Origin: Candidatus Avelusimicrobium intestinale | Lineage (GTDB): Bacteria > Elusimicrobiota > Elusimicrobia > Elusimicrobiales > Elusimicrobiaceae | Assembly: GCA_902765225.1 (NCBI GenBank) | Contig: CACWYV010000001.1 | Span: 310,001 to 374,000 of the forward strand | Length of the DNA stretch: 64,000 nucleotides | Direction of reading: 5' to 3' | Shown: positions 11,439 to 15,421 of the stretch, in pieces | Numbering within the stretch: the stretch's first letter is position 1 | Layout of the letters: the number at the start of each line of letters is the position of its first letter | Program-made: the position numbers and the translations under genes | The notes under the pieces: model-generated | The model's input: the letters and a program-made list of their open reading frames with translations, nothing else | Told to the model about the DNA's origin: nothing | The model's database searches: none

Positions 11439-11470
11439 AGAAAATAGGTTTCCGTTTGGTTGGCGTGGTG

Positions 11471-11722
11471 CTTGTAGCATAAAGTACGTTCCCGCTGTTG
11501 GGAACGCGCCAACAAAAAACGATTTGAGAAGTTTTAAGCCCAGTTGGCGCAGCGCTTGTAGCATAAAGTACGTTCCCGCTGTTGGGAACGCGCCAACAAA
11601 AAACGATTTGAGAGAATTTAAGCCCAGTTGGCGCAGCGCTTGTAGCATAAAGTACGTTCCCGCTGTTGGGAACGCGCCAACAGAAAACGATTTGAGAAAA
11701 TTTAAGCCCAGTTGGCGCAGCG
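11471..11722 (+). repeat. Three 84-bp tandem repeats containing the tRNA-Val 5' end
   Basis: Three units of exactly 84 bp (11471-11554, 11555-11638, 11639-11722) are nearly identical, differing only in a few bases of the spacer. Each unit ends with the first 17 bases of the downstream tRNA-Val gene, and the last of these is the real tRNA start at 11706. A stem-loop recurs at 11459-11513, 11543-11597 and 11627-11681. Its outer stem GTTGGCG/CGCCAAC encloses CGTTCCC-GCTGTT-GGGAACG, which looks like the tRNA anticodon stem with a six-base loop. The first hairpin has a diverged tRNA-like 5' part but keeps the stem. The units carry no tRNA 3' half, so they are not functional tRNA genes. Confidence 0.93.
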
Positions 11723-11780
11723 GTAGCGCGTTCCCTTGACATGGGAAAGGTCACAGGTTCAATCCCTGTACTGGGCACCA
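11706..11780 (+). tRNA. tRNA-Val(GAC)
   Basis: The acceptor stem pairs GCCCAGT with ACTGGGC, the D arm is GGCGC/GCGC-like, the anticodon stem TTCCC/GGGAA holds the loop TTGACAT (anticodon GAC, read as Val), and the T arm carries GGTTCAATCC. CCA is encoded at 11778-11780. It follows three repeats that copy its own 5' end. A terminator begins 5 bases after the CCA. Confidence 0.95.
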
Positions 11781-11784
11781 TTAG

Positions 11785-11811
11785 AAAACCCACCTTTTTG
11801 GTGGGTTTTTT
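11785..11811 (+). terminator. Terminator of tRNA-Val
   Basis: The hairpin AAAACCCACC / GGTGGGTTTT with a TTTTT loop is followed by a T run, a standard intrinsic terminator. A related one with compensating stem changes lies at 15262-15287. Confidence 0.9.
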
Positions 11812-12201: not shown

Positions 12202-12203
12202 TT
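12159..12203. terminator. Hairpin at the end of the kinase gene
   Basis: Nested inverted repeats AATTTGTAA/TTACAAATT (9 bp) and ATTCTT/AAGAAT (6 bp, 4-base loop) end inside the kinase stop codon. There is no T run on the minus strand, so termination is possible but not assured. Confidence 0.4.
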
Positions 12204-13377
12204 ACAGTGCGTTATACGGAATATTTTCTCTAAGTTCTGTAATGTTTTTAAATCGTTTTGAAGGGTCTGGATTTTGTCCTTTTTCTAAAAATTCTCTCAA
12301 ATCTCTATTCTTGATATCTTGAAAATTCTGTTTCCCTGTTAATACAAACATCACAATATGGGTTAAAGCATAAATTTCGTGAGCCATACTATAATTTTTA
12401 AAACCACACAACCGAAGGGCAGGATCATTGCATACACCTTTGAAATGTGTCTCTGTGGTTGTTAAAGTGCTTTCTGGGTATTTAACTAATCCAAAATCCG
12501 ATATTTTTACAACAATAACGTTATCCTCATATTTTTTGATTAAGATATTGCAAGGACTTATATCGCGATGAAACAATTTTTTAGAATGAATATAGGAAAA
12601 TCCTTTTAGAATTTGACTAATAATGTTTTTACGTTGACTAAGATTCAAATTAGGATTATTGTATCTCATAAAATCTAATAGCGTACAATCCATAAATTCC
12701 ATGATATACTGATTATTTTCCTCGTCATACGAATATACTTCTACGATATAAGGAGATTTTAGTGCTTTCATTTCTGTAAACTCTAGTTTAAAACGTTCAA
12801 TTTCCTTCGGAGATAAGTTCTTTTTTGCTCGCTTGAGGACAAAAGTTTTGTTATATAACGTATCGCTATATTTGTATACTTGGGCATAAGAACCTTCCCC
12901 CAACGGAGTGAGCGCAAACTGAGAGAATCCATTCCTTATACTGTTGAAGTGCTGTAAAGGTCGAAAGATGGGTTGAATATAATATAACCGCACCCTTTCA
13001 AAATCACTGGGAATTTCGCTACCACCTGAGCTAAAAAGAAAACATTGGCTTTTGGTAAAAAATTGATGATAATATGCATCTATATCAAAGGCATATTGAG
13101 TGTTCGCTAAGTTAGTATGCAATTCATCAATTACTTGAATTATCCATAATAGTTCACGACTTGGATCCGCTCGAAAATGCCCGCCCGGGATGCGCGTATT
13201 CATTTCTTTTATTAGCTTATTTAAATTTGCATGTAAAGACGAAAATAGTAATTTCAGTTTTTCATTCCGAACTTGTGAATAAAGTGCTAAGAATTCATCA
13301 CTAGCACTATCTCCAAATTCCTGTAATTTATTTTCTATAAATGCGTTTATGATTTGATTTTCTTGTTCAAAAGGCAT
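12202..13377 (-). CDS. Orphan eukaryotic-like Ser/Thr protein kinase
   Basis: This is a 391-residue protein with a C-terminal protein kinase domain from about residue 157. It has the glycine loop LGEGSYAQVYK, the ATP lysine in FVLKRAKK, the catalytic loop HRDISPCN and DFG in ISDFGLVKY, so it should be active. The N-terminal 150 residues form an unassigned, mostly helical region. There is no membrane segment or PASTA repeat, unlike PknB-type kinases, so it is probably cytoplasmic. The ATG has AAAGGGA upstream. Composition is AT-rich like the two lipoprotein genes across the divergent intergenic region, and it lies in the tRNA-bounded island. Its substrate is unknown. Stand-alone kinases of this sort occur in accessory loci, some linked to phage defence, but nothing here proves that. 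Confidence 0.85.
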   Translation of the reverse strand: MPFEQENQIINAFIENKLQEFGDSASDEFLALYSQVRNEKLKLLFSSLHANLNKLIKEMNTRIPGGHFRADPSRELLWIIQVIDELHTNLANTQYAFDIDAYYHQFFTKSQCFLFSSGGSEIPSDFERVRLYYIQPIFRPLQHFNSIRNGFSQFALTPLGEGSYAQVYKYSDTLYNKTFVLKRAKKNLSPKEIERFKLEFTEMKALKSPYIVEVYSYDEENNQYIMEFMDCTLLDFMRYNNPNLNLSQRKNIISQILKGFSYIHSKKLFHRDISPCNILIKKYEDNVIVVKISDFGLVKYPESTLTTTETHFKGVCNDPALRLCGFKNYSMAHEIYALTHIVMFVLTGKQNFQDIKNRDLREFLEKGQNPDPSKRFKNITELRENIPYNAL

Positions 13378-13515
13378 AAAATTTCCCTTTAAATGTCCGT
13401 GTTTCCTTCTTTGTTATTATATAATAAGTAAATTTAAGCTGCTCAAACATGCCATATAATATGCTTTATATCATCATTTTGAAGGAAAAACAGAAATATA
13501 TACCTTGAAATGTTT

Positions 13516-13521
13516 TATAAT
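13516..13521 (+). promoter_or_regulatory. Possible -10 element for the structured RNA
   Basis: A perfect TATAAT lies about 35 bases before the start-stop codon pair and the hairpin array. No matching -35 hexamer is evident, so the promoter is tentative. Confidence 0.4.
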
Positions 13522-13541
13522 GGAAGTATATTAAGATTTTT

Positions 13542-13561
13542 GGAGGGTAAATTTTATGTAA
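13542..13561 (+). promoter_or_regulatory. Ribosome site followed directly by ATG-TAA
   Basis: A strong Shine-Dalgarno (GGAGGG, 13542-13547) is followed after 8 bases by ATG (13556) and immediately by TAA (13559). This is a minimal start-stop frame that could hold an initiating ribosome at the edge of the structured RNA. The stop overlaps the first hairpin arm. Confidence 0.45.
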
Positions 13562-13790
13562 GCCCTAGGCGGGCTTGATTACAATTAGTACTGTTTTTGG
13601 TTGTCTATTATAGACATCACTGTTGCTTAGGCAACGGAGAAGCCAAACCGAAAACGGTCGCTATGGCTAATAGAAACGGCCTTATAACCCGTCTCTATTA
13701 GCAGTAATCCTGTACTTGATTTGATATCAAGCAGGTAGGCGACTGTTATTTGTGTGATTGGCTTCTCACAAATGACGGTCGTCTTTTGTT
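13560..13790 (+). ncRNA. Structured non-coding RNA candidate with pseudoknot
   Basis: Seven hairpins follow one another with few unpaired bases. Stems are 13560-13565/13571-13576; 13602-13607/13611-13616; 13622-13626/13631-13635; 13647-13650/13655-13658; 13666-13674/13694-13702 with inner 13676-13679/13689-13692; 13709-13712/13732-13735 with inner 13715-13720/13726-13731; and a 17-bp stem 13738-13754/13767-13783. The loop of the last stem (13758-13766) is fully complementary to 13638-13646, which lies between two earlier hairpins, giving a long-range pseudoknot. TTTTGTTTTG follows the last stem, so it may also end transcription. I recognise no known class: it lacks the tmRNA, RNase P, SRP, 6S and T-box signatures. 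It could be the leader of the lipoprotein operon 50 bases downstream or an independent RNA. Confidence 0.6.
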
Positions 13791-13836
13791 TTGTATGAGT
13801 ACGGCCTGGGAAAAGGGAATATACTTGGAGAAAAAA

Positions 13837-14472
13837 ATGAAAATAGGACATTATTTGCTTGGCATGATTATAGGTAGTATTTTATGTGGCTGTGCAACAA
13901 ACCCATGGAAGGAATTTTACAATGACGAAGGTCTTGTTGTTACCAAAGACCCACATATACAGGTACGTATAGAAGAAACATCGAATTTACGAGACAGAGT
14001 GGCATATTACTTGTCTCAAGGCTACGTGGTAATTGGTTCTTCGCATTTTGAAAGTGAATGGGTCCCTAGATCCAAAGCATTGAAAGTAGCTCAGCAAAAT
14101 GGAGCAACTCTTGTTGTTGTCGGACACCAACCCACCGGAACACGACAACATAATTATACACTGGCTATTCCACAAACACATACAATTTATCATCAAGGAC
14201 AAATTAACTCTTACACAAATACCAATTCTCACACAGATGTTTATGCAAGAGGTAATATCTATGGTTCTAGGAGTGGTAGTGCTTGGTTTAATGCTAATGC
14301 AAATGTAAATACGAATACCGACACGTACACCAATACTTCATATCAAGGGACATCTACTTATCAAACAATGCAGTTTGTGAACGGATCGTATCAAACCGCT
14401 ATATTTGAACAACTAGCAGTTTTTATGGTCCCCAAAGAAAAAATAGAACAAGGAGAAGAAATTTATGAATAA
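13837..14472 (+). CDS. Hypothetical lipoprotein, Asn/Thr-rich
   Basis: This 211-residue protein begins with a lipoprotein signal peptide and a lipobox ending in Cys19 (ILCGC). The middle part reads GYVVIGSSHFESE, then ALKVAQQNGATLVVVGHQPTGT, a pattern I associate with a widespread but uncharacterised family of secreted proteins. From about residue 115 it is low complexity, with alternating Asn and Thr. The start at 13837 has GGAG 7 bases upstream and gives the signal peptide; an earlier in-frame GTG at 13750 falls inside the structured RNA and is rejected. It overlaps the next lipoprotein gene by 8 bp. Composition is AT-rich, as in the rest of the island. The function is unknown. Confidence 0.75.
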   Translation: MKIGHYLLGMIIGSILCGCATNPWKEFYNDEGLVVTKDPHIQVRIEETSNLRDRVAYYLSQGYVVIGSSHFESEWVPRSKALKVAQQNGATLVVVGHQPTGTRQHNYTLAIPQTHTIYHQGQINSYTNTNSHTDVYARGNIYGSRSGSAWFNANANVNTNTDTYTNTSYQGTSTYQTMQFVNGSYQTAIFEQLAVFMVPKEKIEQGEEIYE

Positions 14473-15115
14473 GATTATTTACATTTTTGTGTTAATATGT
14501 TTTATTAACGGCTGTGCTACATTCACTTCAGGCTCCTTACCAAAGACGCCTAAAGGACAAATAACACTCCCCAAAACCTATAAGAAACAAGACGTTTCTT
14601 TTTCTGTGTCTTACTACCAACAAGTAGGAGATGATATTATAATTAATGAAAAGAAATTAAGGGATGCTGTTAAACAGACTTTTATACGATCTGGATTGTT
14701 TAAAAAAGTAACATATAGACCTTTTTCGCTAAATCTTCCGAACCATTATCATTTTGATCTTAAACTAACAGGAACTCCTATAGAGAAACAATATTCATTG
14801 GGTATGTTGGGAGGTTGTACAGCGGCCATATTGCCTATATGGTTTAATTACTATGTAGACATTTCAATGTTCCATTTCAAAAATGGCAGAGAGTTGTATT
14901 CTGCTACTACTAGTGAAAGAGCGACTGATTTGGTTTGGCTTCCGTTAGTAATCACCTGGCCGTTTTTAAATCACGGAACTATAGGGTCAATGATAAAAAA
15001 CACAACCATGCGTTATTTCCTTTACCAAATCAAAGAGCATGAATTACGGCATATGGAACAAAAACCGATATCAGATGAGACAAAAGATGAAAATTTAGAT
15101 ATTGAAGAGCAATAG
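14465..15115 (+). CDS. Hypothetical lipoprotein
   Basis: This 216-residue protein starts with a lipoprotein signal (MNKIIYIFVLICFINGC, lipobox INGC). The region of residues 112 to 130 (GMLGGCTAAILPIWF) and another near 158 to 170 (LVWLPLVITWPFL) are hydrophobic and could enter a membrane. The C-terminus is acidic. It overlaps the preceding lipoprotein gene by 8 bp, so they are probably co-translated and may act together in the outer membrane. I do not recognise a family. The end lies about 120 bp before the island's right boundary repeat. Confidence 0.72.
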   Translation: MNKIIYIFVLICFINGCATFTSGSLPKTPKGQITLPKTYKKQDVSFSVSYYQQVGDDIIINEKKLRDAVKQTFIRSGLFKKVTYRPFSLNLPNHYHFDLKLTGTPIEKQYSLGMLGGCTAAILPIWFNYYVDISMFHFKNGRELYSATTSERATDLVWLPLVITWPFLNHGTIGSMIKNTTMRYFLYQIKEHELRHMEQKPISDETKDENLDIEEQ

Positions 15116-15421
15116 ATTCCACAGTTGTTTTCTCTTGTGGCAGCCCCCGCACGCATGCTAACGCATGCTTAGCGAAAGGCAAGCATGGCGAGGTGGGGTC
15201 GCGAGCGGCGCGCGTCGGCAAGCCGACTTGTGACCAATTCCCCTGTACTGGGCACCATTGGAAAACCCGCCGAAAGGCGGGTTTTTTAATAGTCAGTAGC
15301 GCATAAACTGTTTTAGGTGGGGTAGAATTTGTAATATTTATAAGGACAGTAAGATGTTGTTTAATCCGCTTGTCGTAACTGTCTATATTATCAAACTATC
15401 CCAGGAGTGCCGGCAAATAGG
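15116..15421. other. Island right edge and non-coding segment
   Basis: No gene is seen. The left part (15130-15240) is GC-rich with short inverted repeats such as GCATGC pairs and GTCGGC/GCCGAC, unlike the AT-rich genes before it. At 15240-15259 lies a copy of the tRNA-Val 3' end including CCA, without the rest of the tRNA. Its terminator (15262-15287) and the following GTCAGTAGC match the sequence downstream of the real tRNA. The remaining 120 bases before the pilin stop hold nothing I can name. Confidence 0.6.
15262..15287 (+). terminator. Terminator beside the tRNA 3' fragment
   Basis: The hairpin AAAACCCGCC / GGCGGGTTTT with a GAAA loop precedes a T run. It parallels the tRNA-Val terminator, with ACC/GGT replaced by GCC/GGC on both arms. 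Confidence 0.88.

Follow-up and report, generated by a model that had tools for sequence, protein, structure and literature searches.

The window analysed here, a stretch of 64,000 nucleotides from Candidatus Avelusimicrobium intestinale, carries a structured leader RNA that most likely represents a new class of cis-acting transcription attenuator, in which each copy appears to hold a private pairing key (Table 1). The RNA, ~240 bases long, belongs to a strongly covarying family in Elusimicrobiota that was previously uncatalogued.

Structure, covariation and distribution of the RNA family

The initial annotation of this DNA had described a large structured RNA of unrecognised class at 13560-13790, with a terminal-stem loop, TTGGCTTCTC, fully complementary to an upstream stretch, GAGAAGCCAA; it was to be abandoned if homologues lacked compensatory changes or if an Rfam family matched. 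Folding agreed with it. Indeed, the minimum free energy (MFE) was -95.3 kcal/mol as compared with -57.2 +/- 4.8 kcal/mol for dinucleotide shuffles (z = -7.9, with 0 of 200 shuffles as good), and the hairpins lay where described. In an alignment of 23 homologues, 96.3% of the cells of the whole structure were paired, 41 pairs had changed on both sides, and 0 of 500 shuffles reached any of five structure measures. The helix between the two complementary strands, hereafter the key helix (13637-13646 with 13758-13767), is fully complementary in the window and was 96.6% paired in the 23 homologues, with 66 both-side changes against a shuffled mean of 17.6. Its covariation was 0.843 versus 0.219 in shuffled alignments and at most 0.195 in slid registers, and alignment A1 held one single-side change in this helix against 66 double changes. 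Compensatory changes were therefore present, and the covariation shows the pairing to be real. Incidentally, we noticed that the key helix (A1 columns 121-129 with 255-263) is almost without G-U pairs, while the other helices have many G-U intermediates.

A search of the window with Rfam 15 at the gathering cut-off matched only tRNAs. At relaxed thresholds, the best matches were miRNA models at 18 bits or less, against a 90-bit cut-off, and were judged to be chance. The T-box model RF00230 was matched at neither setting in the window; nine further loci of the RNA gave no match except a tRNA, and the HEARO model RF02033 found nothing at the window or at these nine loci (Rfam search alone). Neither of the two grounds for abandoning the initial annotation arose. 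Not all of the structure is equally kept: P1 was unrecognisable in many copies of the rumen genome G019, P3 was absent in some copies (L080, L098, L103), and P2a and P2b kept their shape across copies, not their sequence. The unpaired ACAATTT and the P3 loop were conserved; otherwise little unpaired sequence was kept outside the switching strands described below.

Within the same GTDB family, blastn returned copies of 95-96% identity from three further genomes, besides many of 67-82%. The unit shared by the homologues begins shortly ahead of the -10 box and extends ~25 nt beyond the T tract, and the flanking genes differ. A covariance model (R1), seeded on the subfamily of the window so that it may miss divergent copies, and with E-values from a short calibration, had a match in at least 80 of 90 genomes of the family and in at least 93 of 341 genomes of the phylum; its matches in the phylum fell in the family of the window and in one other family outside its order. 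The genomes examined closely were mostly metagenome-assembled, and their sequences are related to one another. Exhaustive searches of single genomes gave 4 full-length copies in the genome of the window, 17 matches in G054, 39 in G085 and 107 in G019; short self-complementary hits to the opposite strand may be among these counts, and G019, of 1.7 Mb, has up to ~107 copies. Among the matches listed for an 18-base pattern of the RNA, some of which are chance, most were named uncultured Elusimicrobium, Elusimicrobiaceae or Elusimicrobiales, several of them from rumen or faeces. Viral carriage was considered and rejected: the pattern matched five IMG/VR contigs, none of which had the RNA by the covariance model, so that these matches were taken as chance. 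In the same re-scan, seven pattern-matching contigs named for other phyla were without the RNA, and three bins named 'uncultured bacterium' had it. A plasmid collection gave no match to the RNA, and in the literature, which was incompletely covered, we found no paper on a structured RNA or a pilin attenuator of Elusimicrobiota.

Table 1. Features of the leader RNA and its locus, in window positions
Feature	Position	Strand	Basis or remark
Leader RNA	13558-13791		between divergent protein-kinase gene and two lipoprotein-like genes
Protein-kinase gene, divergent	12202-13377		Pfam Pkinase
-10 box TATAAT	13516-13521	+	kept in homologues
GGAGGG, Shine-Dalgarno-like	13542-13547	+	followed by start-stop ATG TAA at 13556-13561
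P1 hairpin	13559-13577	+	fold
P2, including inner stems P2a and P2b	13588-13660	+	fold
P2 5' strand GTACTGTTTTTGG	13588-13600	+	partner 13648-13660 in putative terminator state
P2a and P2b inner hairpins	13602-13637	+	fold, covariation
Key 5' arm GAGAAGCCAA	13637-13646	+	complementarity, covariation
P2 3' strand and toehold CCGAAAACGGTCGC	13648-13661	+	predicted partner: P2 5' strand (terminator) or P5 5' arm (antiterminator)
P3 hairpin	13666-13702	+	fold, covariation
P3 loop palindrome TTATAA	13682-13687	+	9-nt loop, 2+6+1 geometry; predicted kissing-loop dimer site
P4 hairpin (variable)	13709-13735	+	fold, alignment
P5 hairpin, putative terminator	13737-13784	+	arms 13737-13754 and 13767-13784, then TTTTGTTTTG
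P5 5' arm segment GCGACTGTT	13739-13747	+	partner 13653-13661 in putative antiterminator state
Key 3' arm TTGGCTTCTC, in P5 loop	13758-13767	+	complementarity, covariation
Lipoprotein-like gene, first in led transcript	13837-14472	+	without Pfam match
Second lipoprotein-like gene	14465-15115	+	overlaps first lipoprotein-like gene

Position of the RNA before co-directional genes

Nearly all copies examined lie before a gene of the same orientation. With ORFs called mechanically around 102 copies, the next ORF was co-directional with the RNA in 96, its start codon lying at a median of 46 nt after the RNA. In 92 copies of G019, -10-like boxes peaked 21-22 and 31-35 nt upstream of P2, which indicates that transcripts start close to the RNA; a third cluster, 10-11 nt upstream of P2, is the conserved ACAAT motif itself. 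In the window, the promoter scanner chose a different pair (TTGAAA at 13505 and TATATT at 13527-13532) over the conserved TATAAT. A riboregulator of the lipoprotein operon, one of the roles first suggested for this RNA, fits the promoter-proximal leader and the terminator-like hairpin, which precedes the start codon of the lipoprotein gene by ~46 nt; other genes are preceded by homologues in the same arrangement. An RNA partner of the kinase system, also suggested, found no echo in the homologues, beside which the kinase is not conserved.

In G019, 89 of the 96-98 copies or led ORFs examined were pilin-like, as were 34 of 95 led ORFs at loci outside this genome. The other led genes encode type III and other DNA methylases, restriction proteins, glycosyltransferases, sulfatases, outer-membrane proteins and lipoproteins. 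The led genes as a whole share no metabolic pathway and suggest no ligand; these types of genes resemble the usual list of phase-variable genes. The genomes G019, G054 and G085 each have more than 100 pilin-like (PF07963) genes in 1.4-1.8 Mb, a very large expansion. The notion that all pilins are led by the RNA was rejected, as G000 has 57 pilin-like genes and 4 RNAs, and G060 has 58 and none was found; the pilin promoters inspected in these two genomes had no such leader. A translated leader peptide was rejected as well: the window has an ATG-TAA after GGAGGG, but most homologues are without a start codon there, and in the close subfamily GGAG is common and the ATG is not. No match to CsrA (PF02599) was found in six genomes in which the controls were positive, and the RNA does not look like a CsrA-regulated leader.

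Several features of the surroundings were noticed in passing. The 3' end of a tRNA-Val (11764-11794) is repeated at 15241-15271, 3.5 kb downstream (94% over 31 nt), which places the kinase, the RNA and the lipoproteins in a small tRNA-flanked islet with no evident integrase. Three tandem 96-nt copies with 84-nt spacing, 94% alike, lie at 11459-11722, immediately ahead of tRNA-Val and reaching into its 5' end, and contain inverted GTTGGCG/CGCCAAC repeats. The copies L003 and L004, which are closest to the RNA of the window, have by eye serine-recombinase-like ORFs ~0.5-1.1 kb upstream, and at L032, L034, L148 and L157 divergent ORFs upstream of the RNA resemble, again by eye, filamentous-phage or plasmid replication proteins.

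Competing folds, private keys and a palindromic loop

The strand CCGAAAACGGTCGC directly 3' of the key's 5' arm is the 3' strand of P2 and is also complementary to the P5 5' arm segment GCGACTGTT, itself directly 5' of the key's partner strand. Owing to these adjacencies, key and core join into a single uninterrupted long-range helix that encloses P3 and P4 and shares strands with both P2 and P5. When the P5 3' arm was deleted in silico, mimicking a transcript yet to reach the terminator, the long-range helix was in the MFE fold of 97 of 100 RNAs. It was worth a median of 24.4 kcal/mol over the same bases single stranded, and 14.5 kcal/mol in the window. The full-length MFE fold of the window is the terminator state; the antiterminator would thus be only kinetically accessible. 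A covariation test specific to the long-range fold is given by the toehold beyond P2: at columns 106/189, outside P2, the 194 RNAs have C-G in 93, U-G in 86, U-A in 15 and no mispair, and the four toehold pairs were paired in 690 of 776 cells against a mean of 663 and a maximum of 673 in 1000 shuffles.

Of 100 RNAs, 96 have a terminal hairpin of 16 pairs or more. In the window its T tract is interrupted (TTTTGTTTTG), and a pattern scanner limited to loops of 3-8 nt called no terminator there. We thus found what an attenuator would be expected to hold, namely an intrinsic-terminator-like hairpin just upstream of a co-directional gene and a covariation-supported candidate antiterminator that is mutually exclusive with it and shares its strands. 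The '9-bp pseudoknot' of the initial annotation stands as far as the pairing goes, but not as a simultaneous formation of P5 and key helix: in our folding models the key pairing sits more naturally in a competing nested helix than in a true pseudoknot, and is more likely one half of a two-state switch.

The key differs from copy to copy. A match of at least 8 Watson-Crick pairs was found for 86% of the keys with their own loop and for 2.8% with the loop of another copy. All 95 readable keys of G019 were distinct, as were 16 of 16, 6 of 6 and 5 of 5 in three more genomes. Between copies, keys were 31% identical, which is near chance, and the remainder of the RNA 61%. None of 231 same-genome pairs of at least 65% identity shared a key, whereas 19 of 26 different-genome pairs of at least 90% identity did. 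These figures for one key per copy are not phylogenetically independent, however, and include only three same-genome pairs of at least 80% identity. The near-identical paralogues L081/L082 and L085/L126 are 92% identical with keys at 40%, and L073 and L088, ~2% different outside the key and leading the same kind of gene, yet have different keys; a distant pair of one genome, L103/L157, has keys one base apart. In L068 (G001:C48, 226-471), near a contig end, the key arms are mismatched and each fits a different relative, so that this copy is either a chimeric assembly or a natural recombinant. On these alignments, keys appear common to many close orthologues and essentially never to paralogues. 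A search for trans partners of the keys in 585 kb of G019 gave no excess (0.95 versus 1.09). Grafting a foreign key into 100 prefixes left a long-range helix in 78 of them, which indicates that under this energy model the helix can do without its own key. Since the core is common to all copies, only the private key would confine the long helix to its own transcript, and the simplest reading is that keys would insulate paralogues from one another.

In 136 of 166 RNAs, the P3 loop holds a self-complementary hexamer at exactly the same register (other offsets, 0 to 6 sequences). Eight palindromes occur (UAAUUA, UUAUAA, UUCGAA, UCAUGA, UUGCAA, CUCGAG, CUAUAG and CUGCAG), and a palindromic P3 loop is also present in a second family (L338, L339, L341). 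A self-complementary hexamer kept by covariation in one hairpin-loop register is what we looked for in a candidate kissing loop, and such conserved symmetry points to RNA-RNA dimers. The loop is thereby a predicted kissing-loop dimer site, at which leader RNAs probably dimerise.

Proposed mechanism, alternatives and known systems

We regard as probable a two-state leader acting in cis as a transcription attenuator, each copy with its private key. The leader would be transcribed from its own -10 promoter and would decide whether polymerase stops before the downstream gene. In the off state (T), P2 (CTGTTTTTGG with CCAAAAACAG) and the P5 hairpin with its T tract would form. In the on state (AT), the emerging P5 5' arm and loop would pair with the P2 3' strand and the adjacent key strand, starting on the unpaired toehold TCG(C); the long helix would break P2 and hold the P5 5' arm, so that the terminator is delayed or prevented. 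Up to ~100 sister RNAs have the core in common, and it would be the copy's own key of 9-13 nt that lets the long helix close only within its own transcript, while the palindromic P3 loops would allow dimers between leaders. The exclusive pairings with their covariation, the shape of the terminator, the position as a leader, the private keys and the palindrome in register can be read directly from sequence; actual termination and read-through, the direction of control, dimerisation and the insulation of paralogues by keys are what we infer from it. The likeliest role is a part in a switchable programme of surface and defence genes. A wider scheme is improbable in our judgement: genome-wide RNA addressing, in which ~100 pilin and surface genes would each have a private-key leader that restricts antitermination to its own RNA, and a handful of palindromic loop types would let leaders kiss in trans. 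Terminated leaders of some genes could then control others, so that surface variants would be expressed selectively or to the exclusion of one another through RNA alone.

Other readings account for part of the data. A metabolite- or signal-sensing riboswitch, with the same expression platform and a ligand pocket in P1/P2a/P2b/P3, would suit the leader position, the terminator/antiterminator platform, the many genes under one module and the conserved unpaired ACAATTT and P3 loop; we think it unlikely, given the little unpaired conservation outside the switching strands, the P1 unrecognisable or P3 missing in some copies, the P2a/P2b that keep shape and not sequence, and targets without a common metabolic pathway, though neither the sparse conservation nor the mixed targets are decisive against a ligand. 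Somewhat less likely still is a static, true pseudoknot, in which P5 and the pairing of the key with its loop would exist side by side in a rigid fold, for example as a protein-binding or stability element. The strong key covariation, the place of the key in the P5 loop and the full-length MFE fold, which keeps P5, agree with it; yet the key continues in register into the helix between the P2 3' strand and the 5' arm of P5. That helix shows covariation beyond P2 and would be a superfluous second pairing, and there would be no explanation for a T tract placed directly ahead of a co-directional gene.

That the downstream gene is a mere neighbour of an independent small RNA gene of ~250 nt, acting in trans and perhaps as a kissing dimer, seems to us rather doubtful. 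Its own promoter and terminator, the palindromic loop and the near-identical copies before unrelated genes (window, L003, L004, L005) are what such a gene would have, but a co-directional ORF so regularly placed is unexpected for it, and no surplus of key matches was seen elsewhere in 585 kb of G019. The single-stranded DNA signal of the initial annotation, read as a folded mobile-element site that would be attC-like or serve packaging or replication, is highly improbable. The tRNA-flanked islet of the window and the integrase-like, serine-recombinase-like or Rep-like ORFs seen by eye beside some copies speak for it, and a key almost free of G-U would suit DNA; against this, the other helices do use G-U, the -10 box and T tract are positioned as for a leader, and most copies are pilin leaders without such neighbours.

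The proposed cis-acting attenuator with private keys suggests an RNA-based control of large surface-gene families, one gene at a time, and offers a mechanism, open to testing, by which a hundred or so related pilin genes could be managed in one bacterium. Its keys let one ask how many near-identical RNA switches can stay independent in one cell and, together with the palindromes, would be natural examples of orthogonal RNA parts. More generally, the gut and rumen genomes of Elusimicrobiota hold an uncatalogued RNA class with very strong covariation.

Among known systems, the terminator/antiterminator attenuators and transcriptional riboswitches (trp, T-box, SAM) are alike in being leader RNAs with mutually exclusive, strand-sharing long helices and a hairpin and T tract just before the gene. 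Unlike them, this RNA has no Rfam match, no leader peptide or specifier was seen, and it has a private key per copy, up to ~100 copies and a palindromic predicted dimer loop; in what was searched it is restricted to Elusimicrobiota. The HIV-1 DIS kissing loop has 9 nt arranged as 2 + a 6-nt palindrome + 1. The P3 loop is like it in geometry only, being part of a bacterial leader of unrelated sequence with eight palindromes and a predicted dimer. GEMM (c-di-GMP/cGAMP) riboswitches are also multi-copy leaders before pilin and surface genes, but differ in size and architecture, and Rfam matched the present RNA to no such model at gathering or relaxed thresholds. Finally, phase-variable surface families and phasevarions involve genes of the same sorts (pilins, glycosyltransferases, lipoproteins, type III R-M methylases); the known cases switch DNA by repeats, inversion or gene conversion, whereas in the present RNA it is the matched key within the leader that varies.
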